Shown: positions 11,929 to 30,032 of the stretch, piece by piece | How positions within the stretch are numbered: the stretch's first letter is position 1 | How the letters are laid out: each line of letters opens with the position of its first letter | Source: a virus | DNA: 30,032 bases | Virus record (IMG/VR): IMGVR_UViG_3300029319_000319 | Location: 1-30,032 of that record | Reading direction: 5' to 3' (one strand) | Position numbers and translations under genes: made by a program | The notes under the pieces: model-generated | What the model was told of the DNA's origin: nothing | Databases searched by the model: none | The model's input: only the letters and a program-made list of their open reading frames with translations

Positions 11929-13505
11929 TCAAACACCACCATCTCAGTATAACGTGAGAGGATGGCTTCAGCGTCCTGTTTCCACATCGCAATTTTGTTA
12001 GCCAAGGGAACATTTTGTGTTCCCTCAGGTATGAGCACACTTCTGTCGTCACTCATGAGCAACTCAGCCGCCACTAACTTAGTACAAGCATCTTCAATGG
12101 CCTTTTCCAGATATCGCTCACCATAGATATACGATGCTTTGACCGCATTCCACTCAAAGAAAGGATATGAATTATTGAAGTACACAATACCTGATTCTGG
12201 GTCCAACCACCAATCACGAAGACGAGCGTGGTCTCCAACACTTGTGCCCCCTTGGAAGTCAACTTGGAACTTGGTCTGGGATGCAGTAGTGCCCGAAGTA
12301 TTGAGCGTGGTCAAAGGAGTACCACTCACATTCGCACAGCCTGTGAAGGAGGTGTCAGTTGTACCTGTATAGGAAAGAACTTCTTGACCGACCTGAATTA
12401 ATCCACCTGACTCCACAAAACCACTCGTGCTTGCCACGTTCACAGTTGTGCTCGAAACTGAGGTGCTAGTTGTGCTCACACTTGAGCCACCACTAATTGT
12501 CAATCCTGTAGTATCAGTGGTAGCAATAGTGCATGTCTCTCCAGAAGCACCATCACGCATAGATGTGATTTTGACTTTCCCACCACCATAATCTGAGTTA
12601 GCAGTAGCAAGGAATTCATTGTCTACAGCCACATTATCTGTAGAACCCTCTAATGTGAAGTTTGGACTAAACGCCACAGCAGTCTTACCCACCCTGTCTT
12701 CTTTATTGATGAGGTCAGCAATGTTCTGAGCAGTAGTAACCTTGTCAAAATCTGAGCGCCAATTTGTTGTGCCTGTGCCCACCGTCAGTGTTCCCACAGA
12801 GCCGTTACCGGGGCTCAGATACAATGAATCTCCACTCAATACTGTATAATCTGAAACTTCTACACGCACTTCTGCTGCTGCCACTTCACGATAATCATCA
12901 CCTTGCCATAACTCAAGTCTAAGCATTTGCTGTACATTACGAAACAATAGAGGCACTGTGCCCACATAATCAGTGTAATATCGACGCCTATAGGGCTTGT
13001 AAGTGTCGAAGTTGAGATATTCTGCAGTGACCAGATAAGGTCTCCAAGCATTGTGAGTCTTGTTATCAATGATGTCTTGATAGCGCAAAATCAGATTTTC
13101 TACATGGCTCTTCTTCGGCCCACGGGTTTTACCATTCGTGAAAGGTGCTTGGTTTTGCACATATGTGTTGTCGGCACTTTGGTAGTCTGAAGTAGAGAAA
13201 GAACCTGTGAAATACAAAGCAACTCCATTAGAGCCACCCTCTGCGATTGATGTAATGGTCTTCTCTATTCCCAATGCCTGAGCGTCGCTGTAAATAAGGA
13301 TGGTATCATTGACTGCAAAGCCATGACTGCGATAATCTGCACCTGTGACATAGACTCTATCAGACTCTGAATCAGCACTGACTGCGACTGCTTCACCGGG
13401 TCCTATTTCCAATAATTCCCCTACTTTATCAGCAGTAGTATAGACTACTTCGGTTGGATATAAGGGACGAACTTCTGGCTCGCCGGGACTAAACACTTTG
13501 GGCAT
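11925..13505 (-). CDS. Putative head-tail adaptor with inserted beta domains (526 aa)
   Basis: The ATG at 13505 lies about 7 bases after TGAGGG. The C-terminus, about residues 450-526, is helical and resembles gp6-type connector proteins ('YLEKAIEDACTKLVAAELLM', then 'LANKIAMWKQDAEAILSRY'). A central region (about 130-210, 'HVENLILRYQDIIDNKTHNA') may be the other part of the core. Between and before these lie Thr/Ser/Gly-rich beta sections, including 'VNVASTSGFVESGGLIQVGQ' with 'EVLSYTGTTDTSFTGC', a pattern often seen in phage tail and neck proteins. Known adaptors have about 100-180 residues, so this would be an expanded version. It follows the head genes and precedes the terminator, which supports the call. 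Confidence 0.55.
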   Translation of the reverse strand: MPKVFSPGEPEVRPLYPTEVVYTTADKVGELLEIGPGEAVAVSADSESDRVYVTGADYRSHGFAVNDTILIYSDAQALGIEKTITSIAEGGSNGVALYFTGSFSTSDYQSADNTYVQNQAPFTNGKTRGPKKSHVENLILRYQDIIDNKTHNAWRPYLVTAEYLNFDTYKPYRRRYYTDYVGTVPLLFRNVQQMLRLELWQGDDYREVAAAEVRVEVSDYTVLSGDSLYLSPGNGSVGTLTVGTGTTNWRSDFDKVTTAQNIADLINKEDRVGKTAVAFSPNFTLEGSTDNVAVDNEFLATANSDYGGGKVKITSMRDGASGETCTIATTDTTGLTISGGSSVSTTSTSVSSTTVNVASTSGFVESGGLIQVGQEVLSYTGTTDTSFTGCANVSGTPLTTLNTSGTTASQTKFQVDFQGGTSVGDHARLRDWWLDPESGIVYFNNSYPFFEWNAVKASYIYGERYLEKAIEDACTKLVAAELLMSDDRSVLIPEGTQNVPLANKIAMWKQDAEAILSRYTEMVVFE

Positions 13506-13514
13506 TCACTGCCC

Positions 13515-14351
13515 TCACATCTGCTCTTGTTCAAATGCCCTTCGTGCCTCAGGAGACAGGCGTCCTCTTGCTTCTTCTCCCTCTTCACGTGCTGCTTGAA
13601 GTGCTGCTTGACGATTGATGTCCCCTCTCATTTGTGACCGGGCCGGAACAGGTGGAGTAATCTGCTGCATTGTATATTCTTCATCTTCTTCAGGTGGTTT
13701 TGCCTTGAATCCTCGGTATGGGGCATCATGGCCATACTCTGCTACTGGAGCATCTATTTCTTGTGACAGTATTTGTGCCGCTTCATCTTCAGTATATCCT
13801 TGACGTAACAAATCTGACATTTTGGCTTCTAAATAAGGCCGGAGTGCCTCAAATTGACGATTTTCAGGAGTAATAGCCTTGACTAATTCTTCCCAAGCGG
13901 CGGCTAATCCGAGAGCATGTGACTTCAGCATGTTTGTTTTCAAACCGAACTCTTCTAATGAACGTTGTCCAGAATCAGAAGGTGTCTGAGCAGGGGCCGA
14001 GTCAGATGTGGAGGTTTTTTCCGAAGATGATGGGACAGAAGGAGTACCTTCGTCGGCCCCGCTCAGACTGTGATGTGGGTATGCTTCTTGTACGGCACTA
14101 TTAGGACCGCCCACAAAACGAATACCGTGTTTTGAATCCTCACCCAACAATTCATCTGCCGTGAAAGGCTTTCCTGTTTTAGGATGGTTTCGATTCATGA
14201 GGTGACTGACTTTCAAATCTCCTTTTTTCTTACTATTGGTAAAAACATCAGCAATTGCACTATGATATGGTCCCTTTTTGTTATGTTGAAACTCAATCTT
14301 CTGATGGCCTACTTTGACCTCTCTTGCTTTAACCAATATTTTTCTACTCAT
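13515..14351 (-). CDS. Unknown head/neck-module protein (278 aa)
   Basis: The start is an ATG at 14351 with an excellent site, GAGGTGA, and a 4-base ATGA overlap with the preceding gene. The N-terminus is basic ('MSRKILVKAREVKVGHQKIE') and is followed by 'KTGKPFTADELLGED'. Residues about 95-130 are a Ser/Pro/Thr linker, and the C-terminal half is helical and charged, with 'AALQAAREEGEEARGRLSPE' near the end. No family is recognised. It may be a minor head protein, but there is no direct evidence for a role. Confidence 0.6.
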   Translation of the reverse strand: MSRKILVKAREVKVGHQKIEFQHNKKGPYHSAIADVFTNSKKKGDLKVSHLMNRNHPKTGKPFTADELLGEDSKHGIRFVGGPNSAVQEAYPHHSLSGADEGTPSVPSSSEKTSTSDSAPAQTPSDSGQRSLEEFGLKTNMLKSHALGLAAAWEELVKAITPENRQFEALRPYLEAKMSDLLRQGYTEDEAAQILSQEIDAPVAEYGHDAPYRGFKAKPPEEDEEYTMQQITPPVPARSQMRGDINRQAALQAAREEGEEARGRLSPEARRAFEQEQM

Positions 14352-16251: not shown

Positions 16252-17382
16252 TCACTGCAGGTCTCGCACGCTCCCTTGTGCTCCAAAGAAAGAGCACCAG
16301 ATTTCGCCCATTGTTCGGTAGAGACCTTCCTGACCAAGTCGGTTGATACCGAATGGGTCACCAGTCTCAATACCAGACTCAAAGTACTGGGTTGGAATTG
16401 CTGTGCTAAACCAAAGATAGTCCGTGTCAAGGTAGTAGATACGGCTGATTCCATCGCTTGGCATGTCCTTGGTTGGGATGATTGGGACCCCATTGTAGGT
16501 AGCCACGATGAATCCGGCTTCGACGCCGGGTACACCCTGTACACCATTGTAGGATGGGACCACTCTCTTCTCTTCCATGAAGCGCTGCTGGCTCTGGAGG
16601 AGTTGTTGGATTCTCATCAGTGTGTCGTATCCCGTCAGCATAACCTTCGGGTTGCCACCACGAGTCCAGAGTTGCTGGAAGAGATTGTCGAGGTGGTCAA
16701 GGCTGAGGGTTCTGTTAGTGCTACCAGAGTCTGCCTCGTCTTCAGCGAAAGACCACGTGTTTGCACTGCGGTCAATGCTGTAGATGTCCTCATCGGCTGC
16801 ATCGTAGTGCGTACCAGAGGTCATCGAGGTGTTTCCAGTTGTGACTCGGTCAAGGGACTCGAAATTGTTCCCAGCGGCTGTGGTCACGTCGGTCAAGAGC
16901 ATCTTGTTCACCATCTCAGCGTGGTGCTTGCCCATTTCTTCCTTCATGACTGCTCGGATGTCACCCAGACCATCGTCCTTGTCAGCAAGGAAGATGGCAG
17001 TCTCCGACATGTCGAAGGTGTGAGCAATCGTCTTTGGCTTTGCACCAACATTCTGGAATGTTGGGCGAACCGTGTCAGGGAGTGTTGCATTCTCTGCTAC
17101 TCCACCATGGACAGTTCCTGCGTTGGGCTTGGCCGTGATGACCCTCCAACCGCTTCGGTCCCATGGCTTCTTTGGTAGAATACTGAAAGCGTTGAACTCT
17201 TGGTTCAGTTGGCTCCAGACCTTGCGACCATAGATGGCTTGGTAGGTACCTGCTGTGGTCGACAGCATTGGGCTGTCTGCCTTCAGCAACTCACTACCGG
17301 AGTATGAATACCCCATTGCGTTGCCTGCGCCGTAGTAGTAGCGTTCCAAATCTGTGACTGTCCTTACGTAGTTTCGTGCCAT
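16252..17382 (-). CDS. Major capsid protein, HK97 fold (376 aa)
   Basis: It lies directly after the maturation protease, as in HK97-type viruses. The sequence suits an HK97 fold: an N-terminal arm, then 'QAIYGRKVWSQLNQEFNAF' and 'GVAENATLPDTVRPTFQNV', a region like the E-loop and spine, and a C-terminal half with 'GNPKVMLTGYDTLMRIQQLL' and 'GVPIIPTKDMPSDGISRIYY', typical of the A and P domains. AGGAGG lies 8 bases before the ATG at 17382 but only 2 before the ATG at 17388, so 17382 is preferred; the 17388 start would overlap the protease stop. Codon use is visibly more GC-rich than in neighbouring genes, consistent with high expression. Confidence 0.9.
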   Translation of the reverse strand: MARNYVRTVTDLERYYYGAGNAMGYSYSGSELLKADSPMLSTTAGTYQAIYGRKVWSQLNQEFNAFSILPKKPWDRSGWRVITAKPNAGTVHGGVAENATLPDTVRPTFQNVGAKPKTIAHTFDMSETAIFLADKDDGLGDIRAVMKEEMGKHHAEMVNKMLLTDVTTAAGNNFESLDRVTTGNTSMTSGTHYDAADEDIYSIDRSANTWSFAEDEADSGSTNRTLSLDHLDNLFQQLWTRGGNPKVMLTGYDTLMRIQQLLQSQQRFMEEKRVVPSYNGVQGVPGVEAGFIVATYNGVPIIPTKDMPSDGISRIYYLDTDYLWFSTAIPTQYFESGIETGDPFGINRLGQEGLYRTMGEIWCSFFGAQGSVRDLQ

Positions 17383-17384
17383 TT

Positions 17385-18773
17385 TCATTCCCTCCTGATA
17401 ACTTGGTTAGCAAGGTCATGGACTTCACTCCATGACATTCCTGCCAATTCTGTGGTCTCAGGGATTGGTACTTCTGAAAGAGGTGCTCCACCAGACTTCT
17501 GGATGGTGGTGCTCTCAGAGGAAAGGTTGTCGATTCTCTCGGAGAGAGATTCGATTGCCTTGGTGATGTCGGCCAGAGGCCCACGAGCATCGAAGGACTG
17601 TCGGGCTTGGGCTTCCTGTGCCTCTTGGTTCTCCTTTGCGAGTCTCTCAGCGAAGAAGCCGCCAAGGTTCTCTTTGAACTGCTGCTCATTGGCTGCAGCC
17701 TTGTAGACTTCGTAGGCTTTCTCGATGTCTGCATCGGTGACATCAGTTGGGCTGAGGAAGCCTTTCTTGGCTTGCATCTCATCACTGCCACCGAGGCCCA
17801 TGTTCTTGATAGCGTTGGTTGAAGGAGAGCCACTCTCTTGGGCTCGTCCCTTGACCTGTCCTGCAAAGTAGTCAGCGCCATCTACGGATTCTGGGTTGTC
17901 GAATCCACCAAGTTGTGCCTTCTCCATTGAATCTGGGTCAGCGAAGTGGGCTCGTGCCTTGTCTACATCATAGTTAGCAGACTTAGCAACTCCCTCTAGG
18001 AAGTTAAGATAATCTTCACTGATGAACTCATCATCAGATTTCTTTTTGTCATCTTTGTCTTCGTCTTTCTTCTCTTCTTTGGCGTCTTTCTCATCAGCCG
18101 CCTCTTCTTTTACTTCTTCAATGAAGTCAGGGGCTTTTTCCACTTCGTCACTCTTTTCCATAGAATCGAGGCGAGTTTCCAGTCGATTGAGAACGTCAGA
18201 TAGTTCGTCCAAGGCTGTCATATGCTCCCCCTTGCTAACGTCTTCCTTAATAATACGGAAGGTTGACTCTGGGTTAATGCCTTTTTCACAAATTGTAACT
18301 TCATGGAGTTCCAGTTTGCTGATTTCACGATAATCTCCATGCTTAGAATCAGATTTATTCATTCTTTTGAACGCTTGGCCACCGATGCTAAATCCACGCA
18401 AATTTCCCTTTCTTATTTCTGAAGCGACTTCTCGTGCCTTTTCTATGTCGTCCCTTAACTTTACGACTACAAACATACCAACATCGTCAACCTCAGATTT
18501 CCAAACCTTACCTTGACTGTCTGCATATTCAGAGATAACACTACCAACCTGTATGTTAGAATGTGCTAACTGTACATTACTATATTCAGGAGATGCCATA
18601 TATTTCTTGAAAGCATCTCGCAATGCCTCACGAGTAATAAGGTCGCCTTGTTTATCGACCAACTCTACACTTGCATAACCAGCAACAATGAGTTCATCTG
18701 ATTTCAACAATTGAATATCTTGCAAAGGTACTCTCATGTCTAACATATTATCATATGTGCGCAAATGTCTCAT
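17385..18773 (-). CDS. Prohead maturation protease fused to a scaffold-like C-terminus (462 aa)
   Basis: Residues about 20-175 resemble XkdF/HK97-type prohead proteases: 'AGYASVELVDKQGDLITREA', the catalytic histidine H71 in 'LAHSNIQVGSVI', serine S129 in 'LRGFSIGG', and a downstream acidic residue in 'LELHEVTICEKGINP'. Residues about 185-285 are highly charged and helical, with a Lys/Asp/Glu-rich stretch around 215-250. The rest is helical and scaffold-like, with a coiled coil near 410-425. The enzyme would cleave scaffold and capsid arms during maturation; the fused tail probably acts as the internal scaffold. The start overlaps the giant gene's stop (ATGA) and has no Shine-Dalgarno sequence, suggesting coupled translation. 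The last 28 residues share a motif with the 124-residue protein. Confidence 0.88.
   Translation of the reverse strand: MRHLRTYDNMLDMRVPLQDIQLLKSDELIVAGYASVELVDKQGDLITREALRDAFKKYMASPEYSNVQLAHSNIQVGSVISEYADSQGKVWKSEVDDVGMFVVVKLRDDIEKAREVASEIRKGNLRGFSIGGQAFKRMNKSDSKHGDYREISKLELHEVTICEKGINPESTFRIIKEDVSKGEHMTALDELSDVLNRLETRLDSMEKSDEVEKAPDFIEEVKEEAADEKDAKEEKKDEDKDDKKKSDDEFISEDYLNFLEGVAKSANYDVDKARAHFADPDSMEKAQLGGFDNPESVDGADYFAGQVKGRAQESGSPSTNAIKNMGLGGSDEMQAKKGFLSPTDVTDADIEKAYEVYKAAANEQQFKENLGGFFAERLAKENQEAQEAQARQSFDARGPLADITKAIESLSERIDNLSSESTTIQKSGGAPLSEVPIPETTELAGMSWSEVHDLANQVIRRE
17388..17471 (-). repeat. MSW motif at the end of the protease-scaffold
   Basis: Residues 435-462: 'VPIPETTELAGMSWSEVHDL' followed by ANQ. 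The same pattern, VP-x-[DN/PE]...E-[LF]-x-[GA]-MSW-[SD]-[ED]-[VI]-H-x-[LM]-A, is seen at 24652-24717. Confidence 0.7.
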
Positions 18774-21700
18774 CTATTTAATACGGAGGCATTCTTCTTC
18801 CGTTTTTCTTCTTCTCTCGTTTCCTTTGCTTCTTTTTCATCAGTATATTCACTGTCAGAAGAGTCCCAATCAGGCATGGTGGCTCCACCATCAATAGTAG
18901 TAGGGCCACGTGGGGCAGTCTCCCCTGTTCCATAATTAATGGCTAAACTCTCAATACCAATTGATGCCATTCTCTCTTTTGTAATGCGGTCCATCAATTT
19001 CGCAGCCAATAATGCAGCCTTCACAGTCAAGTCTTCCTCTGTCGGTTTATGGAAAGTACCCGGTACTAATTTGGGTTCAAGGAATGGTTCATGGGGCTCA
19101 GGGTTATCAATTTCCTTAGGTGGTTTTGCCAACTTCTTACGGTCTTTCTCAGACATCTTAACTGCTATCTTCTTACTTTTGAGCAAAGCAGCGGCCACAG
19201 GTTCCCAATCATCACGAGTTGCTTCACATAGACGAATGACGTAATCGCTATCGTTTTGGTCAGGGAGAGAAACTTGTGGCTCTTGTAATTCTACTCCTAA
19301 CTCATTAGGATACATCTTGTAGAGTACATCATTTTCTAAATGGGATAATTCGACCTTCAAGAAATTCTCTTCAAGTGAAACCTTAGTGGGAGTCCACACT
19401 GGTGCAGATTTTGCTAAAATACCAAGCGTCTCAATGCTTGCTGGTGCATCTCCCTCACCATGCACCTTCCCCCCTCTTACAGTAAACAATGAGCGACCTT
19501 TCTGCTTCTTCTCTTTAACAGAAGCCACAGTGACTTTCACAGTGTGTCCTATCTCATAACGCTGCGGTGAACGGAAAACTGTCCCTACATCCATGTAAGT
19601 ATGTTTCTTGGTTTTCACTGCTCGGGGACCTAATCCTTCTGTGTCAAATATAGGGCCCGCCCCCAGTCTATAGGTATAAGGACCAGTTCCTGAGCGGTCA
19701 AGAATGATGAGGTCAAGTTTCTTTCCTTTCTGTAAAATGACCCACTTAGGATGTCTTAATTCCCCACGCATGTAAGTAGATTGAGCATCTCTTAACAAAA
19801 TAGGTTGTTCCAATTCAGCAATAGCATCCTCAAGGCCGTCATCGTCAGTTGTGCGCAAAGTTGAGGGGGACGGGGGTTGGAAATACTCATGTGGCTCAAA
19901 AGTGGCCCTTAACAATCGAACTCGCTCTGTTGCCTTCATTTCATGAACATCATCATCCTCAATTCTCAGCACATCTATTACATAGAAACGCTTCTTGTGC
20001 AACATTCCATCAAGAACGAAATCTTTCTCACTGGATTTCTTTGCATCTTTCTGTACCTGTTTAGGGACTTCTATTTTCTCATTAAGAGTGGTTTGAGCAG
20101 TGAAATTATCTCCTTTCCTCGTTAGCATAATACGCTGACCCTTTGGCCAACAAGTAACAACCCACTCTCCTGTAAAACCACGAAGAGAATCTAAATCATT
20201 AATATTGAAAATGCGATGCATAGGAAGAATGGGGTCAGGTCGAGGTGTTTTGAAGAAAACATTGTCTAATAGACCAAGAGTATCGGTTTCTTCACTATGG
20301 TAAAACAACCTACCACCATCATCTCCAATTGTTTCATCAGGCCGCACATCACGAGCCGACTCCCCGTGTATGGTTTGTTTCAAGGCGTTGGGAAGAGATA
20401 GATGCTCATCACCTGTCAACATTCCTTCTAATTCAGGAAATACATCAAATAAATATCCACTGGGCACACTCATCAAGGGAGTCTCTTTTACAGGAGTATC
20501 TACAATGTCCACACTTCCGTCTTTACCCAATCTCAAACTATAATCAGGTAACATACCCCAACCCCAATTCAAACGAGGGCCATCAAAGAAATCATGTATT
20601 GAGTGGCCGCCCGGTTTAGGTGTATCAATAGGAGCCTCTCCCCATGTATATTTTGTATTCTTTCGTTTCATAGGTGCTACTTCTCCTGAAGGAGAAAACA
20701 AAACTACACTATCAAGAATTCTTGCCGCTCTAGCCATCTGTCCTTTCTGTTTTTGGTCTCCGGTTTTCCCACCCCTTTTGCCAGTAATAATTTTCATTTC
20801 CCCAGTTTTTTTATCTCGCACTCTTTTTTGACGCCTTTTATCTGTGGGGATGTCTCGCAATGGGGCCTCAACACGCATAAGGCCATGCTTTTCTCCTGCT
20901 GATGTTATAATATTCGATGCTCTTTTAGCGGCGGCTAAAAGTCCCCTAGCGGTATCACTCTTCCTATCTTTTGGAGACCCAATCATATCAAACAAACCAT
21001 CTCCAATATGGTCCATATCTTCTGCATGTTCCTTGCCACCTAACAGCCCTCTTTTGATTGCTTCATTTACAGTCATAGCCATCATCGGGTCTTTCTTATG
21101 CATTGCAGATTGTACCCTTTGAGCAATTGCTTGATGGTGTTTATTTGAAGCATCAAGACCAAGCACTCCCATGATATCTTTGCCTGTCATATTTTGTGAA
21201 ACTATACCTTCCTTATGTTCACCCACACCTTGTGCCAAAAACGCTGCAGGGTTTTCTGCAGCCTTTGATTGTTCATATTCATCTGTTCCACTCAAAGTAT
21301 GCCCCATTTGACCATGTGCCTCATGAGGGAGTTGCAACAAACCAAGGTTTGCTTGTCTGAATAATTGAAGCGCATTTGATAACAATGCCTGTGGGTCGTC
21401 TTTGTGGCGCTCAAAAAAATCAGGCCTTATTTCTTCCATAGCGTCTCTAAGTTTTTTAGCCATGTTTGTGATAGCATCCATGTGTTTTGACAAGACTTTA
21501 TCATGTTGTTTAATGTAAGACGCTGCACCAAATCTTTCTTCAAATGGGTCAGTGACAATACCGTCTGGACCCACTGTTTGTCCTTGTAATTCATGATGTA
21601 AAACAGGGTCATTTGTTGCATGATTATCTGGTGATACTCTATCAAATGACATCATCCTTGCTTTCTTCCCGTCTGGACCAATAACTTGTTGTGTGAAATG

Positions 21701-24163
21701 TGTATTTGGTAACATTTTCCCTGCCATTGGTGCACCGGGAGGATAGATACTACCCATCTTAGTTCTCAAAACTAAATTGTGTGCTATTTTATCTGGCATC
21801 TTATCTCGTTCTATCGTTATGGGTAAAGAATGATGCATGTCTAATAATTTACCATGACTGTCCCAAAACGTCTTTGGGTTAGTGGGTACCTTACCTTTAC
21901 CTTGGGTCCCATAAGTCTCTTCATCTAATCTGGATTGTGTTGCCCCCGCATGAGTTGTTGTAATATTAGCCCGAGCATTGATATTAGTGTATTGGGGAGT
22001 TTCCAAAGTATTGTGGTTTTCATCAACAAAAGCGTGCGATGCACCACCCATATCAAGAATTTCATGTGGCTCCATTCCACCATGTATAGTGGGTTGTTCT
22101 ACTAGAAGCAACCCTCCTTCTGAACCAACCCTCCCGAATTGGACTTTTTCAGCATATTTGGGATTCATAATAGTAACCCCTTGGCCCTTTCCTTCTGGGT
22201 CTAAAGGATTCATAGGTTTTGGTCCCACTTCTCTGTGTTTTACACCATATACAGTGGGATGTAATGGTGCTAACAATCCTGCCATCTCAGGCCTGAAACC
22301 AATAATAGGTAAATCTTCTTGTAATATTTTAGAAGACAAACCTTCCACCAAGCCTTCTTTACCCTCACTAACATCAAGGTCATCATCAGGAGTAAAATCT
22401 TCACCCAAAGCAACTTGTTCTCTCAACGCCTGCGGTATGTCTACCTGAGACATATCTTCCATTTTGACACTTGAAACTTTACGTCCTCTCTTTGTTTGGT
22501 CTTCTGGGTGTGTTTCATGGAACCCATGACCGATAAGTGATAATGATTGATGTGTTGGTCCCCCAATTGTGGTTTCTTCTAAAGGAGTATAGTTTGTTGT
22601 CAAAAAATCATGCAAGCCGTCAATATATGTTTCATGGTCCCTTCCCAAGCCTCCTCTCCTGTGGAAAGGCTCCATCCAATGTGAAGCAAAGGTACGAGAA
22701 TGGCCATCATGGTCGTGATAATATCCAAGGTCACCCTCTTGTGAAATAAAATCAGGGCTAGGCCCAAACATATTGCGATATGCCAAATAGGCATTACGAG
22801 TATCTTTTTGTCGAGCAGCGTGTCCACCTAACTCTTTCACTTTATTTTGAAACTCTTCAATCAAAGAAGGGTCTATGATATGTGCCCCTTTCCATTTATC
22901 TCCATATATTGGGTGCTGTCCTTGTTCATACACATTCCCATCTTCATCTAGGCCTGCTAACATGTTGAATAATTGAGGTGTTAAGATTTCACCCTCATTT
23001 CCATGAAAGTTTTCGCCACCACTATAACCGGGTAAAGGGGCGTTTTCGTCTTCTACCATAGAGCGATGAGTGGCCAATAATCGCTCATAGATACTATCAC
23101 CATCTTCGGTATCAATCTTTTGAGCAGCATCAGTATATGTGCTCAAATTCACATCACCGGCCCCATGTATCTTTTCATGTATGGGGGCTATATTCGGCCC
23201 ATGCTTATCTTCAGCACGCATCATCCAATCTTTTTCACCAGCAGTTCGGGCAATAAAATTGCGCTTTAGGCGTGCAGCAGCCATATGGGGTATTGTCTCT
23301 TCTCTATCAGAGCCGTGCTCCCAAAGGTGACCAATAATTTCTGTTCTCTTTGACGGTGGCATGAATTCAAGCCCGAGATTGTATCCTAACCAACCAAGTT
23401 TGCGTGAATGTAATCCGTTTTCATCTTCATAATGCTCACCATCAGTCCATTGCTTAGCACGGTCATTGAAATGTTCTTCACGCAAATTGTGTTGCATTTC
23501 AGCATCCAATTCTGCCAAACCGATGTTTTTGCTTTTCAACCATCTCAAAAAATCAGTGTCATAATAATCATGAGCAGACTGGTCGTCTGCCAAAGTCCCC
23601 AAGAACCTGTTACCAAAAGCAGAGGATTGATTCCACCGCTTTTGATGTGCCAGTTCTGCCTTGGCTTCTTTTTCTGCTAAAGATTCAGTATGAGCGTCTG
23701 GTCTCAAATAATAGTTCCTTAAGACTTCAACAAAATGATTTCCTTCTCGTAAAGGGTGAATAGATTCAGAAAAGGGGTGGTGGCTACCATATGGCATTTG
23801 TTCACTGTTGCGAGTGGGCATTAAATCGTGAGTGGGGCTCATTTGAGGCCAAGCACCATGAATCAATCCTACTTCTCCCTCACCCTCCTCATCTCCATAT
23901 GCCACCGGCATTGCAGGTTCAGTTCGCTCATTGTATGGTCCTTGAGGTAAATCACTAACAGCCTTTGACAAAACCATATCACTGAAAACCCGTGCCATTA
24001 CATCATCACTCTTAGTGATGTGAACAGCATCATGTCTCTGTAAATTACGCAGAGCAAAGCGATAAGCAGCCGCAGAATCTACAGTATCTATGCCATCGAA
24101 AAGAGATTTGAGCACATCTGAGCGGGCTCTCAGATAAACTTCAACAGGTCCCTCGATTGACAC
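18770..24163 (-). CDS. Giant head-module protein with a degenerate DNA-ligase-like domain (1797 aa)
   Basis: The GTG start at 24163 follows GGTGAGG by 4 bases. It lies near the portal, just before the protease, the slot where MuF-type minor head proteins are often found. Residues 1-1300 match no family I know; they are rich in His, Met, Asp and Gly ('DLGYYHDHDGHSRTFASHWM') with scattered helical parts and one basic stretch (about 1105-1145, 'KRRQKRVRDKKTGEMK'). Residues about 1311-1565 follow the motif order of ATP-dependent DNA ligases and capping enzymes, but lack the catalytic lysine. About 200 residues follow, ending in a charged tail. It has no signal peptide or membrane segment. I infer an internal virion or minor head protein, possibly ejected with the DNA. 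A multi-domain enzyme with other, unrecognised active sites is possible. Confidence 0.8.
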   Translation of the reverse strand: MSIEGPVEVYLRARSDVLKSLFDGIDTVDSAAAYRFALRNLQRHDAVHITKSDDVMARVFSDMVLSKAVSDLPQGPYNERTEPAMPVAYGDEEGEGEVGLIHGAWPQMSPTHDLMPTRNSEQMPYGSHHPFSESIHPLREGNHFVEVLRNYYLRPDAHTESLAEKEAKAELAHQKRWNQSSAFGNRFLGTLADDQSAHDYYDTDFLRWLKSKNIGLAELDAEMQHNLREEHFNDRAKQWTDGEHYEDENGLHSRKLGWLGYNLGLEFMPPSKRTEIIGHLWEHGSDREETIPHMAAARLKRNFIARTAGEKDWMMRAEDKHGPNIAPIHEKIHGAGDVNLSTYTDAAQKIDTEDGDSIYERLLATHRSMVEDENAPLPGYSGGENFHGNEGEILTPQLFNMLAGLDEDGNVYEQGQHPIYGDKWKGAHIIDPSLIEEFQNKVKELGGHAARQKDTRNAYLAYRNMFGPSPDFISQEGDLGYYHDHDGHSRTFASHWMEPFHRRGGLGRDHETYIDGLHDFLTTNYTPLEETTIGGPTHQSLSLIGHGFHETHPEDQTKRGRKVSSVKMEDMSQVDIPQALREQVALGEDFTPDDDLDVSEGKEGLVEGLSSKILQEDLPIIGFRPEMAGLLAPLHPTVYGVKHREVGPKPMNPLDPEGKGQGVTIMNPKYAEKVQFGRVGSEGGLLLVEQPTIHGGMEPHEILDMGGASHAFVDENHNTLETPQYTNINARANITTTHAGATQSRLDEETYGTQGKGKVPTNPKTFWDSHGKLLDMHHSLPITIERDKMPDKIAHNLVLRTKMGSIYPPGAPMAGKMLPNTHFTQQVIGPDGKKARMMSFDRVSPDNHATNDPVLHHELQGQTVGPDGIVTDPFEERFGAASYIKQHDKVLSKHMDAITNMAKKLRDAMEEIRPDFFERHKDDPQALLSNALQLFRQANLGLLQLPHEAHGQMGHTLSGTDEYEQSKAAENPAAFLAQGVGEHKEGIVSQNMTGKDIMGVLGLDASNKHHQAIAQRVQSAMHKKDPMMAMTVNEAIKRGLLGGKEHAEDMDHIGDGLFDMIGSPKDRKSDTARGLLAAAKRASNIITSAGEKHGLMRVEAPLRDIPTDKRRQKRVRDKKTGEMKIITGKRGGKTGDQKQKGQMARAARILDSVVLFSPSGEVAPMKRKNTKYTWGEAPIDTPKPGGHSIHDFFDGPRLNWGWGMLPDYSLRLGKDGSVDIVDTPVKETPLMSVPSGYLFDVFPELEGMLTGDEHLSLPNALKQTIHGESARDVRPDETIGDDGGRLFYHSEETDTLGLLDNVFFKTPRPDPILPMHRIFNINDLDSLRGFTGEWVVTCWPKGQRIMLTRKGDNFTAQTTLNEKIEVPKQVQKDAKKSSEKDFVLDGMLHKKRFYVIDVLRIEDDDVHEMKATERVRLLRATFEPHEYFQPPSPSTLRTTDDDGLEDAIAELEQPILLRDAQSTYMRGELRHPKWVILQKGKKLDLIILDRSGTGPYTYRLGAGPIFDTEGLGPRAVKTKKHTYMDVGTVFRSPQRYEIGHTVKVTVASVKEKKQKGRSLFTVRGGKVHGEGDAPASIETLGILAKSAPVWTPTKVSLEENFLKVELSHLENDVLYKMYPNELGVELQEPQVSLPDQNDSDYVIRLCEATRDDWEPVAAALLKSKKIAVKMSEKDRKKLAKPPKEIDNPEPHEPFLEPKLVPGTFHKPTEEDLTVKAALLAAKLMDRITKERMASIGIESLAINYGTGETAPRGPTTIDGGATMPDWDSSDSEYTDEKEAKETREEEKRKKNASVLNR
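19469..20233 (-). other. Inactive nucleotidyltransferase (DNA ligase/capping) fold plus OB-fold domain
   Basis: Residues about 1311-1565 of the giant protein. In order: 'PILPMHRIF' (1311 on) like the ligase 'PMLA' entry; motif I position 'EWVVTCWPKGQR', where K-x-D-G-x-R is replaced by W1339-P-K-G-Q-R1344; motif Ia-like 'LTRKGDNFT'; motif III 'FVLDGML' (D1385-G-M in place of D-G-E); motif IIIa 'RFYVIDVLRIEDDDV'; motif IV 'EQPILLRDAQSTYMRG' (1452 on) with S, Y and G at +4, +6 and +9 after R1458 as in ligases; motif V position 'KWVILQK', lysines lost; then an OB-like part 'DVGTVFRSP...IGHTVKVTVASV' from 1525. The fold is convincing, but every catalytic position is substituted. Confidence 0.7.
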
Positions 24164-24169
24164 ATGTCC

Positions 24170-24595
24170 TCACCGAGAGCCACCGTCAACAAGTCTGTCT
24201 ACACCAGTCTTAGTGTGAGGATTCAGATGTATAGTTTCAAGATTGACTTCTTCTTTGTTCGCTCCCTTATTGGTAATATCTTCAACCTCGACCGTATTGC
24301 CATTGGTCCAATAAGGAGCAGTCCTCACTTGTCCTCCAGTTTCCGTCACAAAGTGAGATGGTCCAACGGTTGAGCCCTCTTTTTGACCACTGTATTCGGG
24401 TTCAGACTTTTCCATGTAGCCCATTTTCCCACAACCCATTTTACAAGCCATTTTACCCATACCGGATGACTCCATAGCCTTGCCACACTCAGGGCATTTC
24501 TTATCTTTAGCCTTCTCAATACGCTCATTCAAACGCAGTGCCTTGAGCATTAACTCTTCTACTTCTGGTGAAATTTCACTATATCTCGGTCTCAT
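24170..24595 (-). CDS. Small zinc-ribbon head-module protein (141 aa)
   Basis: Four cysteines, C34-x2-C37 and C51-x3-C55 ('CPECGKAM' and 'CKMGCGKMGY'), form a probable zinc ribbon behind an N-terminal helix ('EVEELMLKALRLNERIEKAK'). The C-terminal 80 residues are polar and apparently disordered, with 'VGPSHFVTETGGQVRTAPYW'. The ATG at 24595 overlaps the previous stop (ATGA). The gene lies 6 bases before the giant protein's start, so the two products may work together. The family and function are unknown. Confidence 0.65.
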   Translation of the reverse strand: MRPRYSEISPEVEELMLKALRLNERIEKAKDKKCPECGKAMESSGMGKMACKMGCGKMGYMEKSEPEYSGQKEGSTVGPSHFVTETGGQVRTAPYWTNGNTVEVEDITNKGANKEEVNLETIHLNPHTKTGVDRLVDGGSR

Positions 24596-25346: not shown

Positions 25347-27071
25347 TTATGCTCCACGAGGACGCCTTGCGTCCATTAACGCCTTAGAGTTTCGTTGTGC
25401 TGGGCCGGGTTGAGGACCTCTTTGTTGAACACTTGAAACAGGAGAGCCACTCACAGCACTACGATTTTGTGGGGAGGCGGGACCACGATTTCGCAATCCA
25501 ACCCCCTCTCCTCCGGGCTGAGCACCGGGCATTGTCATAGAACCATGGCCCATCCCACCTTGCATTGGTGACATTCCACCTTGCATTGGTGGCATTCCAC
25601 CTTGCATTGGCACTCCGCCCATTGGCATACCTCCGGGCATCATCCCCGGCATACCGGGTTGTTGCCCTTCTTCTGGGCTACTATACACGAATCTCAAATC
25701 CTCTTCTCCCTCAGATTTGAGTTCAGGCTTGAAACCAAGCATCATCATACGCTGAGCGATATTAACTTCCATCTCATCTCTACGAAGACGTGTAACTTCA
25801 TCCTCTTCTTCACTTGGATAAAGAGCAAGTTTCCAATCTGTGACACCCATCTCAGCAAGTAATTTCGGGAACAATGAATCCGTGTACACTTTTTGGCCAA
25901 ACTCAACTGCCCTGTTAGTGACAACCATTTGCATACCTTCATTGTTCAGACCACCCGATTTACCAGTGTCCATCATAAAGACATTTGATACACCATAGAA
26001 AGCAGCCATACGCATACGAATTTCATCTCGCACTGCAATATACTGCATCTCCTCTAAAGTATCCATGAATTTGACCCAATTGACCCCACCTCTTCCACTG
26101 GAAGACTCAATGCCCACCTTAGGGACATAATGGGGGTCTCTCTCCATCTTTTCATCTACTGCTTTCCAGAAGGATTTCATAGATTCCAAATTGTCAGTTG
26201 TAACACTGATAATGCCTTTTGGAGTGCGTCGCTTCTGATAAGCAGTGTAAATGTAATTGTCCATAGCAGTCAATGTCATTGCTTGACGCCATAGGGTGTT
26301 TACAGGGGCCTTACCATACAATTTACTGGGATTGTATTTGCTAACATGAAGCACCTCACCCTTGATGAAATATTGTGTTTTCCCACTACCAGCAGTGTTG
26401 ACAAAGTGAACATCAAACATTTCATCTTCATCATAATCACTTGCACCCGGATAAATGGGCTTAACACGGTCTTTGAGGCGCACACGATACTTACCACCTC
26501 TCACCCCTCTCTTATCCGCAACAATACGCATGAAGATAGGGTCACCACGAACTACCTCTTTGACACGAGACATAATGGGTTGACCTTTTTCATCAAGATA
26601 ATATTCCTTGACCAAAATCAAAAAGGCATCATCTACCACATCAAGGTCATATTCAACTTCTCTCATAACATCGAGGAAAGATTGACCCATGGAATTCTCT
26701 TGTTGTAACATCCATTGAGGGTAATTCAATTGTTCATGGTCGGGACCCTTTACCTCACCCCCGCATTTATTGCACATTACTAAATCGTGTTGGAATTCCT
26801 CATGACACTGGTCACACTTCTTAACGAATTTTGGCTCCCAAAAATAACCACGGCGAAACATTTCTTGATTAAGAGTAGTCAAAACTGTACGCAAAATCAA
26901 ATTCTCACTGGCCACTGCATACAATGCAGGAATTGTAATTCCTTGTGCCAAAACTGGTTCTTGTATCCCCGTTGTCCAAAGGGGCATGATGGGTTCAGGA
27001 GTAGATTTACGTCGAAAAGGACGAGTAAGGGCCGATATGACCCGCCTGACTGGACCTTGCCTGTCGCTCAT
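25347..27071 (-). CDS. Portal protein with embedded zinc ribbon and Met/Gly-rich tail (574 aa)
   Basis: HK97/SPP1-type portal features: an N-terminal basic segment, 'LYAVASENLILRTVLTTLNQ', a wing region 'LDVVDDAFLILVKEYYLDEK', 'GEVLHVSKYNPSKLYGKAPV', a long stem-type helix 'NTLWRQAMTLTAMDNYIYTA', and 'VRDEIRMRMAAFYGVSNVFM' near the crown. Portals form the 12-fold DNA entry ring. Unusually, C86-x2-C89 and C100-x2-C103 form a zinc ribbon between the first helices and the wing. After about residue 470 the tail is low in complexity, with 7-residue repeats of the type MQGGMSP, and then Pro/Gly/Gln-rich. The ATG at 27071 overlaps the LAGLIDADG gene stop (ATGA) and follows GGGATGA. Confidence 0.9.
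   Translation of the reverse strand: MSDRQGPVRRVISALTRPFRRKSTPEPIMPLWTTGIQEPVLAQGITIPALYAVASENLILRTVLTTLNQEMFRRGYFWEPKFVKKCDQCHEEFQHDLVMCNKCGGEVKGPDHEQLNYPQWMLQQENSMGQSFLDVMREVEYDLDVVDDAFLILVKEYYLDEKGQPIMSRVKEVVRGDPIFMRIVADKRGVRGGKYRVRLKDRVKPIYPGASDYDEDEMFDVHFVNTAGSGKTQYFIKGEVLHVSKYNPSKLYGKAPVNTLWRQAMTLTAMDNYIYTAYQKRRTPKGIISVTTDNLESMKSFWKAVDEKMERDPHYVPKVGIESSSGRGGVNWVKFMDTLEEMQYIAVRDEIRMRMAAFYGVSNVFMMDTGKSGGLNNEGMQMVVTNRAVEFGQKVYTDSLFPKLLAEMGVTDWKLALYPSEEEDEVTRLRRDEMEVNIAQRMMMLGFKPELKSEGEEDLRFVYSSPEEGQQPGMPGMMPGGMPMGGVPMQGGMPPMQGGMSPMQGGMGHGSMTMPGAQPGGEGVGLRNRGPASPQNRSAVSGSPVSSVQQRGPQPGPAQRNSKALMDARRPRGA
25555..25610. repeat. 21-bp tandem repeat in the portal gene
   Basis: Nearly three tandem copies of a 21-base unit start at 25555, 25576 and 25597, the first two differing at one base. 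They encode the 7-residue Met/Gly/Pro repeats of the portal tail. Confidence 0.85.
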
Positions 27072-28399
27072 AATTCATCCCGCCATTTTGCTACTGTATC
27101 AATGTTGACACCCCAATCACTCAACATTTGCTGACTTTTTGTTTCATTATCCGACCAATTCTCATATTGGACCAAACGCTTGAGATTTTCTTTCTTGAGA
27201 GGGTCACTCTCATCAATGAATGCAAGAACTGCTTTGGCTTGCATCCCCTTTAGTCTAAGATGGGGCTGTATGCCTACCAATAGTTTACGCATATCGTCTT
27301 TGGAATAGAATTGCAAACGATGTTGACTTCGTTGTCCGTCCTTGTACACTTTCTGGTCAAGTTGCAATACACCACATCCAAGTGTTTTGTGTAGAGCCTC
27401 GCAATGGGCTCTGCCCCGGTCACCTGTTGCTATGAAACCCGCTCTGGGCTCTCCTCTTCCAGTGATTGAAATATATCCATCTGCATCAAGGAACCCTGCT
27501 GCATAAGACCAAGCCTCATCTTCTTTGAGTACTAATTCTCCCCTCTCTTGAAGTATGTATTCACCTCTGCGTGCCCCTTTCATGATACCATATTCATCCC
27601 CATACATTTTGAACAATAGACCCAAACGACGTGCTGTCAACATACGTTTCAAATTTCCAGAACACTTACCAAGTATGTTATCCAAGATTGTAGCAGCATC
27701 CATTGCTCCTTTTTCTCTCAATTCTTCTGTTGCAAGAACCATACATTCTTGCTCACTTTTGTTCAACATATCACGTGGATTAAGTGTATTAGACCATGAC
27801 TTCTTGGCACTGGTTCTTTCGTCCATTGCCCAAACCCATTTCTTTTGTTCATCTTCTCCCCAAACACCCTCATGTTGTTCTAATGTCTTGAGTAAAGCAT
27901 CTGCTCGCTCCCAGCGCTGACAGGCCCTCAATAGTGTATCTTTTTGCTCTACACCACGCCGCCTCAAGGTTTTGAGAGTCTTATCGCTCAGCCCCATATT
28001 ACGTATTGTGCTTTGATGCTCTAAGGCCCACCCTAATGATTTGAGTGTAGCATCTACTTCTTCTTCTTTCAACTTACGAACGCTACGTATGACAATATCA
28101 ATATCTTCTTTGATGTCTTTATGTTGTCTGCGTGCTTTACGCAAGGACCTCACAACTTCATTGGCTGAGCGCCCCATATGTAATTCAAACCAGCCCTCAC
28201 CATCGTGACCAAATGGAATAGGAGATTCATATTCTTCACCACCTAACATTTCCTTGACTGACTTTGTCACAACTTCAGGATATTGCGCATAGACCGGGTG
28301 CCTGAGTAACTCTCCACATATTTCTGTCATTTCTTTGGAGATTGAATCAAATTGAGGAACATCCTCTAATTCATTCAATAAAGACGAAGCCCATACCAT
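27068..28399 (-). CDS. LAGLIDADG-domain protein between terminase and portal (443 aa)
   Basis: Residues about 294-400 are a single-motif LAGLIDADG endonuclease domain: 'WSYAAGFLDADGYISI', with catalytic-type D307 in G302-F-L-D-A-D-G308, followed by 'EALHKTLGCGVLQLDQKVYK' and 'GMQAKAVLAFIDE'. Residues 1-290 are helical, charged and unknown. The ATG at 28399 lies 1 base after the terminase stop; a longer frame to 28474 would overlap the terminase by 74 bases and is less likely. With one motif the protein would need to dimerise to cut symmetric DNA. It may be a free-standing homing endonuclease or a nuclease used in packaging. There are no intein splicing motifs, and the neighbouring genes are intact. 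Confidence 0.8.
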   Translation of the reverse strand: MVWASSLLNELEDVPQFDSISKEMTEICGELLRHPVYAQYPEVVTKSVKEMLGGEEYESPIPFGHDGEGWFELHMGRSANEVVRSLRKARRQHKDIKEDIDIVIRSVRKLKEEEVDATLKSLGWALEHQSTIRNMGLSDKTLKTLRRRGVEQKDTLLRACQRWERADALLKTLEQHEGVWGEDEQKKWVWAMDERTSAKKSWSNTLNPRDMLNKSEQECMVLATEELREKGAMDAATILDNILGKCSGNLKRMLTARRLGLLFKMYGDEYGIMKGARRGEYILQERGELVLKEDEAWSYAAGFLDADGYISITGRGEPRAGFIATGDRGRAHCEALHKTLGCGVLQLDQKVYKDGQRSQHRLQFYSKDDMRKLLVGIQPHLRLKGMQAKAVLAFIDESDPLKKENLKRLVQYENWSDNETKSQQMLSDWGVNIDTVAKWRDEL

Positions 28400-28400
28400 T

Positions 28401-29855
28401 TCAAACACCAAACCAAGACGGCTTTTTGGGAGTGCCCATAACCCAATCATCGAAACCCGGTAAATAATCATCAAGCATTACAACACTTCCTTTGAACTCC
28501 TTTGTTGCCCAATTCGCCAAAGCCAAACCCATTGCAAGGTCATCGTGAGTACCCACACTCTCAAGTCGGCCCCACTTTGTCATTCCGAAACGATTGAGTT
28601 CAGTTTCTAATTTGTGCGTAAATCTCTTACTCTCTTCATCTGCATATGGAGTTCGGATTTTACCTTGCTCAAACGCAAGAAGGAGGCTCATGAATAGACT
28701 CTCTTTCTTTTGCCGTGTTGTCATGAATGTACGAATTGGAATGTCAGTTTCTCTCATTTCCATTGCAAACATACGCTGAAAGTTGTTACCTTCTAATTCA
28801 ATCAAATCCGCATGAAAACGATTGTTGAGTAGCATCATCATACGACGCTGTGCCTGAGAATTCAATCCTTTTTCATGCACAGCATGAATGATTTGTTTCA
28901 CTTCATCATCAGGCATTCTCATGACAATCATAGCAGTATAGTCAGCATTCTTATCTGAAGCAATAGCAGGGTCCCAACCAATGAAATGTTGACCAAAAGG
29001 AGTGCCATCATCATTAGTTTCTGCCCTCTGTAATAGGCTTAATTCAGGGTCCCTTGCCGCCTCAAGTATGTCCATCGGGAACATACTGGCAACATCGTGA
29101 ATAGGTTCACACAGATACTCACGTGCAAACTGAATGGCAGGCATTGACATACGTCGCTGGTCTAGAGCATCTAAGTCCCAACGCTCAGGCCAAAGGGCCT
29201 CACCATCTTCATTGATAGCAGGATATGTCTGTACCTTGAACGCATCTTTGCGCTCTAATTCAGCATACAAGTCATTGTAACTGAAAGGAGTCCCCACCAT
29301 CATCAGGCGTCCCGTGTGGTGCAGAACAGGAAGAAGAACTGAGTAAAACCAATCAGCAGTACGTGCCAATTCACTTGCAGTACTGCCCCATAGAATATCG
29401 TCACACACAACCACGTCAGGGTGGAAACCACGAGTTGCTCCACCAACCGACTTACCCATAATACGACTTTTGTTAGTGAAATCCAGATATGACTTAGCCC
29501 ATGGGCGACCTTCTGGTTTGAGATGTTGTAGAACTGGGTGGTTTGTGATTTGATTACGAATAAATCTCATGTGCTCCAATGTCTGCTCCAAAGAATGAGA
29601 GAAAATCATGATGTGAGTATTAGGTGTAAAAGCCGCTAACCAAAGCGCATATGACATAAAAAGCGTCGACTTACCGTGGTCACGAGATGCTTTGACGACA
29701 TAGTAACGATTCTGTTGGAGGGATTCAACCCACTCATTGTGATGATGGCTGTAATGAAACCCCAAAACATCAGTAAAGAAGTAATGAAACGATTTTGCAC
29801 ACATCTCACGGTCCACTTCAAGGACCATTTTTTGCATATCGACTGCTTCACTCAT
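28401..29855 (-). CDS. terL: Terminase large subunit (484 aa)
   Basis: Packaging motor ATPase and nuclease. Walker A is 'KASRDHGKST' with K62; Walker B is 'DVVVCDDI' with D152 and D153; the coupling motif is 'RLMMVGTPF'. The RNase H-like nuclease carries 'GWDPAIASDKNADYTAM' (D295), 'LIELEGNNF' (E353/E355) and 'VGTHDDLAMGLALA' (D438, D439), so all acidic active-site residues appear present. The length is normal for the family. The ATG at 29855 follows AGGAGGT by 6 bases; an in-frame TTG at 29858 is rejected. Its start overlaps the upstream stop (TGATG), as usual for a small-large terminase pair. Confidence 0.95.
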   Translation of the reverse strand: MSEAVDMQKMVLEVDREMCAKSFHYFFTDVLGFHYSHHHNEWVESLQQNRYYVVKASRDHGKSTLFMSYALWLAAFTPNTHIMIFSHSLEQTLEHMRFIRNQITNHPVLQHLKPEGRPWAKSYLDFTNKSRIMGKSVGGATRGFHPDVVVCDDILWGSTASELARTADWFYSVLLPVLHHTGRLMMVGTPFSYNDLYAELERKDAFKVQTYPAINEDGEALWPERWDLDALDQRRMSMPAIQFAREYLCEPIHDVASMFPMDILEAARDPELSLLQRAETNDDGTPFGQHFIGWDPAIASDKNADYTAMIVMRMPDDEVKQIIHAVHEKGLNSQAQRRMMMLLNNRFHADLIELEGNNFQRMFAMEMRETDIPIRTFMTTRQKKESLFMSLLLAFEQGKIRTPYADEESKRFTHKLETELNRFGMTKWGRLESVGTHDDLAMGLALANWATKEFKGSVVMLDDYLPGFDDWVMGTPKKPSWFGV

Positions 29856-30032
29856 CAATTACCTCCTGTTGGTGAAGGCAAATTATTATCTTCGCCAAGG
29901 AGAGCCCTCCATGGTGGTTCTTTTTCAGAAGCATCTCCCTGCGCCAGATTCTGCTGCTGTTGTTGAGCCATCATTTTGTCCTGCTCTTTTTTGGCTTTTT
30001 CAGCAGCGTCTACTTGTGGATTCGATGGTTGT
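29855..30032 (-). CDS. C-terminal end of a Gln-rich protein, 5' part outside the window
   Basis: A frame open from the right edge to a TGA at 29855-29857 gives 58 residues. They are helical and charged ('VDAAEKAKKEQDKMMAQQQQ') and then polar, ending 'RALLGEDNNLPSPTGGN'. The stop shares one base with the terminase start. Its place directly before the large terminase suggests a small terminase subunit, but the visible part shows no DNA-binding domain, so that is only a guess from gene order. Confidence 0.6.
   Translation of the reverse strand, partial: QPSNPQVDAAEKAKKEQDKMMAQQQQQNLAQGDASEKEPPWRALLGEDNNLPSPTGGN

Follow-up and report, generated by a model that had tools for sequence, protein, structure and literature searches.

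A predicted DNA-ligase fold lacking its catalytic residues in a giant head-operon protein of magrovirus-type tailed viruses

Magroviruses, viruses of archaea abundant in the ocean, rank among the commonest viruses of the sea (PMC10160649). They have been credited with an ATP-dependent DNA ligase (PMC10768690; PMC12999244; PMC10160649), which stands on the list of enzymes in accounts that describe them as nearly self-sufficient in replication (PMC10768690; PMC12999244). In a group A magrovirus, a single read of 678 bases carries the ligase gene together with the prohead protease gene (PMC7318539). Among ligase-related proteins with other roles, poxvirus A20 has, within a larger protein, a middle domain that combines a catalytically inactive DNA ligase with an OB fold (PMC11142717), and catalytically inactive Lig4 has a structural role in DNA end synapsis (PMC10858965). 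Snurportin binds the cap (PMC5396385), and the tail-fibre attachment role of T4 gp63 (RNA ligase 1) is separable from its ligase activity (PMC3004832).

The head module and the family of giant proteins

The DNA analysed here, referred to as the window, is a stretch of 30,032 nucleotides from the virus record IMGVR_UViG_3300029319_000319. Its head genes are as follows:

28401..29858, minus strand: terminase large subunit, TerL (PHROGs phrog_38, E 2.7e-66)
25347..27071, minus strand: portal protein, similar to Druskaviridae portals (PHROGs phrog_18178, E 9.8e-57)
18770..24163, minus strand: giant head-module protein of 1797 aa with a GTG start (open frame and homologues)
17385..18773, minus strand: prohead protease (PHROGs head maturation protease)
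16252..17388, minus strand: major capsid protein, MCP (PHROGs phrog_24667, E 4.1e-61)

The gene order is TerL, an HNH-bearing frame, portal, three small frames, the giant gene, prohead protease and MCP, with TerL, portal, protease and MCP in the order of a head module on one strand. The protease gene is the next one downstream of the giant gene, and the two overlap by 4 bases. The window is a head module of the magrovirus type (archaeal, Caudoviricetes), since its portal protein resembles the portals of the Haloarcula tailed viruses (Druskaviridae), which have been named as relatives of magroviruses (PMC12999244; PMC10768690).

The frame between TerL and portal (468 aa, window 27068-28474) overlaps TerL by 74 bases, and its C-terminal third matches an HNH nuclease (phrog_5046, residues 321-428). 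A 141-aa frame directly before the giant gene (window 24170-24595) had 261 similar frame matches, the highest number among the queries (portal, 155), perhaps reflecting two copies in some genomes. The tail part of the operon holds a 1628-aa frame (window 3-4886), which runs past the window end, and an 840-aa frame (window 8551-11073), both without a PHROGs match.

A scan with the portal protein yielded 80 viral contigs, and nearly all those spanning the region carry a giant gene with the ligase-like domain described below at the same place. Scans with the domain alignment added 431 and 117 further stretches encoding relatives, the two sets overlapping. Portal, giant, protease and MCP genes keep the same order and strand in every examined locus that reaches them, TerL comes first wherever the locus reaches it, and the gap between giant and protease genes has a median of 17 bases. 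The same gene order was found in 80 loci gathered by similarity of the domain and not by synteny. In every locus examined, the domain lies within the giant gene, directly before the protease. An earlier note on this DNA had called the giant a head-module protein, a description borne out by the invariant order of portal, giant, protease and MCP on one strand. Short frames considered as split giants were rejected, as they are ends of loci. Neither the giant nor its domain gave a match in a tblastn search of 50,697 phage records, the cellular genomes scanned yielded no relative with the patterns used, and no counterpart was seen in the loci of Haloarcula HCTV-5, HGTV-1 and Methanomassiliicoccales vir335.

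Fold, catalytic residues and conservation of the ligase-like domain

The domain as a whole comprises residues ~1311-1590 of the giant protein. The ligase consensus is K-x-D-G-x-R at motif I and WLKIK at motif V. The entry sequence PILPM occupies residues 1311-1315 (window 20233-20219, minus strand), and the Asp-Gly of motif III (residues 1385-1386) follows W1339 by 46 residues. The parts of the domain in the window are as follows:

19730..20233, minus strand: predicted pseudo-nucleotidyltransferase core, residues 1311-1478 (Pfam/NCBIfam; PDB profile; AlphaFold with Foldseek and VIA)
20132..20149, minus strand: motif I slot WPKGQR, residues 1339-1344, with W1339 at the place of the nucleophile Lys and with Gly and Arg kept
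20000..20017, minus strand: motif III slot VLDGML, with Asp kept and Glu replaced by Met
19967..19984, minus strand: motif IIIa slot YVIDVL, residues 1394-1399 (alignment)
19787..19810, minus strand: motif IV slot EQPILLRD, residues 1452-1459, with Glu-Gly replaced by Gln-Pro and Lys by Arg
19730..19753, minus strand: motif V slot HPKWVILQ, residues 1471-1478, with both Lys gone in the window (the second is Q)
19439..19720, minus strand: predicted OB-like beta barrel after the core, residues ~1482-1575 (beta strands 193-281 of the model; VIA alignment)

Compared alone with Pfam, the excised window domain matched DNA_ligase_A_M with an E-value of 0.0025 and 18 bits (gathering cut-off 26.2 bits) and the snurportin cap-binding domain with 0.0065, also below the Pfam cut-off. 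At the family level, DNA_ligase_A_M was matched by all 64 aligned relatives (Pfam, E up to 1; best 2.1e-8), the snurportin domain (PF21974) by 24 of the 64 (best 1.9e-6, Pfam), and the mRNA capping enzyme likewise by 24 of the 64 (Pfam). NCBIfam families of ATP-dependent DNA ligases were matched with values up to 3.5e-9, and the family profile matched a Thermococcus DNA ligase (4.8e-5) and snurportin-1 (0.003) in the PDB. The AlphaFold model of the domain, made with the family alignment as input, has a pLDDT of 82 overall and ~90 in the core. With an E-value of 1e-11 and a probability of 1.00, its top Foldseek matches in the PDB are ATP-dependent ligases from archaea and human, and VIA aligned model residues 6-300 with the core and OB domain of the Pyrococcus furiosus ligase 2cfm (Z 19.9, 271 residues, rmsd 3.4 A). 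In a control of the family profile, two real ligases from archaea reached 19.9 and 15.7 bits and none of 600 shuffles exceeded 7.8 bits; the third real ligase of the control, that of HGTV-1, was outside the top matches of the profile.

Taken together, the profile matches and the model predict that residues ~1311-1590 form a DNA-ligase fold, and homology in sequence and predicted fold would place the domain in the nucleotidyltransferase superfamily as a non-catalytic branch. The ligase fold with its OB domain was recovered by AlphaFold, Foldseek and VIA; one clade lacks the OB domain. The earlier note had read the order and spacing of nucleotidyltransferase motifs here from the letters; its coordinates and motif positions are exact (PILPM, WPKGQR, the Asp-Gly spacing of 46, YVIDVL and EQPILLRD), and the resemblance is a real one, since the Pfam, NCBIfam and PDB-profile matches are significant and the structure prediction gives a confident ligase fold. 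A chance resemblance, or another fold, would fit the single-sequence Pfam score below the curated cut-off and the lack of a match when the family was compared by profile with the lone ligase sequence of HGTV-1 (other active ligases were aligned instead); it is extremely improbable, given that the structure prediction is in line with every sequence test made at the family level and that the shuffled ligases fall well apart from the two real ones.

The clade without an OB domain after the dead core is monophyletic and fully supported in the core tree, and the OB domain was lost in it or was never present. Its members include L062, L063, L065, L031, L032, L187 and L217. In this clade, the motif I slot varies among M, L, Y, H, Q and F.

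Catalytic residues were counted over 155 distinct relatives, in columns placed by alignment with the active ligases of Thermococcus, Archaeoglobus and HGTV-1, whose motifs at these columns are KYDGAR, VEGEL, EGLMAK and WLKIK. The nucleophile column holds W in 42, M in 41, Y in 24, F in 14, H in 11, L in 10, Q in 9 and I in 4 relatives and K in none, which answers in the affirmative the question raised in the earlier note of whether the lysine is lost throughout the homologues. The motif III Glu is likewise absent from all 155 (the column is I, V, T, F, M, A or L), as is the first motif V Lys (L, M, V or I). The second motif V column is K or R in 88 of the 155 and Q in the window. At the motif IV Lys position, 154 of 155 have Arg, and the motif IV Glu column is E in ~47 of 155, an approximate count from a gapped alignment. 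The loss of all catalytic positions, as the earlier note had it, thus holds for the window but not for the whole family, some of whose members still have this Glu. The enzyme hallmarks absent from the window domain are the motif I Lys, the motif III Glu, the Glu-Gly and Lys of motif IV and the lysines of motif V.

Other positions are nearly invariant. The motif I Gly is kept in 152 and its Arg in all 155, the motif III Asp in 154, the motif IIIa Asp in 149, and the Asp, Lys and Trp after the motif IV Arg each in 155 of 155. The domain also has an invariant stretch, RD..S.YM.GE..HPKW, without a catalytic counterpart. Judged by the lost residues, the formation of a lysyl nucleotide by the known route would be impossible for the domain. 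Catalytic loss is present throughout all clades of the core tree, and under the preferred explanation the common ancestor of the members sampled had already lost the adenylation chemistry.

Across the family, no other part of the giant is as well conserved as the domain, which is under strong purifying selection, with a dN/dS of 0.042 compared with 0.082 after the domain and 0.32 for residues 1-1290. It is 95% identical to that of the nearest distinct relative, with which the N-terminal 1300 residues share mostly 40-80%. The boundary of conservation is sharp and lies near window position 20260 (residue ~1300), where identity to the nearest distinct relative rises from 40-80% to 93-95%. The domain has a lower dS as well, so recombination may have taken place near residue 1300 in the past.

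The rest of the giant gave no consistent match in Pfam, PHROGs or the PDB. Residues 1-560 (window 22484-24163) are predicted to be mostly helical (pLDDT 76, pTM 0.77), and their model had no match among solved structures, the best VIA result being Z 5.2 over 63 residues. Invariant residues in this part are W208, H231, G264, R298 and G504. No PCNA-binding (PIP-like) motif is conserved in the giant.

The annotated magrovirus ligase and the role of the domain

In a PF01068 search of 31 records of 73-111 kb, every match but one fell inside the giant; the search was not exhaustive, as record G002 gave no match though its giant is known. The exception is record G024 (102,093 bases), which has a separate ligase gene of 379 aa at positions 12641-13780 (L264:1142-2281), with the intact motifs QRKFDGVR, FDGELY and EGAM, a Pfam E-value of 2.6e-19 and an OB domain. 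G024 keeps the dead domain in its giant beside this gene and is the only such record of the 31. Families of NAD-dependent ligases and RNA ligases were not found in 12 long magrovirus records. Because the dead domain is the only match to ATP-dependent ligases in the long records other than G024, the published magrovirus ATP-dependent DNA ligase is, judging from sequence, probably this domain of the giant, and the 678-base read that joins a ligase gene to a protease gene (PMC7318539) very probably covers the junction of giant and protease. The published ligase is listed as a replication enzyme, whereas the domain of the giant lacks the catalytic residues. Most magroviruses would then use a host ligase or do without one, and the annotation would need to be corrected.

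In active ligases, the motif I Arg, the motif IV Lys and the basic positions of motif V contact phosphates or DNA. The giant may be a head-morphogenesis protein whose C-terminal third holds the pseudo-ligase as a noncovalent binding module, most simply for DNA ends or nicks, a reading to which we give a probability of about 0.5. Under this reading, the domain, which has the nucleotidyltransferase core of an archaeal-type ATP-dependent DNA ligase and in most members its OB domain too, would make no lysyl-AMP and would still grip a phosphate-bearing ligand. Such a grip is suggested by the retained motif I Arg, the Arg of motif IV and the often basic residue of motif V. The domain could encounter such ends or nicks at the portal vertex or in the head while DNA is packaged. 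The predicted fold, the lost residues, the purifying selection and the fixed place in the head operon, all computed here, speak for a binding module; from them we infer DNA as the ligand, a location in the virion and a role in packaging or assembly. This agrees with the proposal of the earlier note that a ligase fold was kept for binding nicks, DNA ends or a protein partner after its chemistry had gone. The narrower proposal, that a giant protein of the head or portal vertex uses the dead ligase to read DNA ends or nicks in packaging, head maturation or genome release, is put forward tentatively, with the odds rather against it.

Two observations count against the preferred reading. A whole clade has no OB domain, which speaks against closing around DNA, as ligases do, being the function that all members have in common, and elsewhere in the giant no fold was recognised that would point to its place in the virion. 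The conserved surface residues might serve a protein contact instead, and the dead fold would then be a module for docking or structure in the head or neck, holding the portal, protease or scaffold and making no contact with DNA. This alternative is quite possible, with a somewhat less than even chance; besides the dispensable OB domain, the invariant RD..S.YM.GE..HPKW may be a docking face, and the assembly role of T4 gp63 is separable from its ligation (PMC3004832), while the basic residues kept at phosphate-contacting motif positions count against it. By analogy, the precedents of A20, Lig4, snurportin and T4 gp63 make DNA binding and protein docking both plausible.

The A20 middle domain, with the same ligase-OB architecture, bridges subunits of the polymerase holoenzyme (PMC11142717), and magroviruses encode their own replisome (PMC10768690), so the giant might be an accessory of replication or repair merely located in the head operon. 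This is unlikely in view of its invariant position between portal and protease, its tight coupling to the protease gene, the lack of a conserved PIP-like motif and the opposite direction of replication and morphogenesis genes in magroviruses (PMC10768690). Even less probable is an active nucleotidyltransferase or ligase with a displaced or different nucleophile, for which the published name would be right. A Lys does immediately precede the slot in one clade (SKWYDGKR) and immediately follow it in another (HKDGKR), and the motif IV Glu persists in part of the family; yet the clades share no conserved lysine in or around the slot, none of the relatives has the motif III Glu or the first Lys of motif V, and in G024, where the intact ligase is a separate gene, the dead domain is still kept. 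The noncovalent binding module remains the preferred reading, and the domain, as a defined piece of 260-340 residues, is open to expression and testing.

Comparison with described systems

The setting of the dead ligase, a gene for head assembly in archaeal tailed viruses, appears to be new, and no earlier description of it was found in the papers searched. Dead viral ligase domains as such are already known from poxvirus A20 (PMC11142717), and only the present setting would be unprecedented. It would be the second viral case, after A20, of a ligase fold kept without its chemistry, here in a morphogenesis gene.

The archaeal ATP-dependent ligases of Pyrococcus and Thermococcus (PF01068, TIGR00574) share with the domain the core plus OB fold, the motif order, motif IIIa, a Y..G..R..W element before motif V and the LDL-I strand leading into the OB domain. 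Unlike them, the domain of the giant lacks the nucleophile Lys, the motif III Glu, the first motif V Lys and a segment of ~30 residues between motifs III and IIIa, and it is embedded in a head-operon protein of 1700-2150 aa. The m3G-cap-binding domain of snurportin-1 (PF21974) is also a nucleotidyltransferase-related binding domain with profile matches to the family, and its motif I slot, V-C-P-V-G-K-R, is much like the T-C-W-P-K-G-Q-R of the window. However, snurportin-1 is eukaryotic and binds an RNA cap, whereas the giant is viral and archaeal, with a ligase-like core plus OB domain. To our knowledge, no cap ligand is known in archaea. T4 gp63 resembles the giant as a nucleotidyltransferase protein with a role in virion assembly, but it is a small active RNA ligase outside the particle, while the giant carries a dead domain and belongs to the head operon. 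By description, A20 likewise holds an inactive ligase and OB fold within a larger protein of a virus (PMC11142717); A20 is the processivity factor of the poxvirus polymerase, whereas the giant is encoded in a different gene context, that of the head operon.
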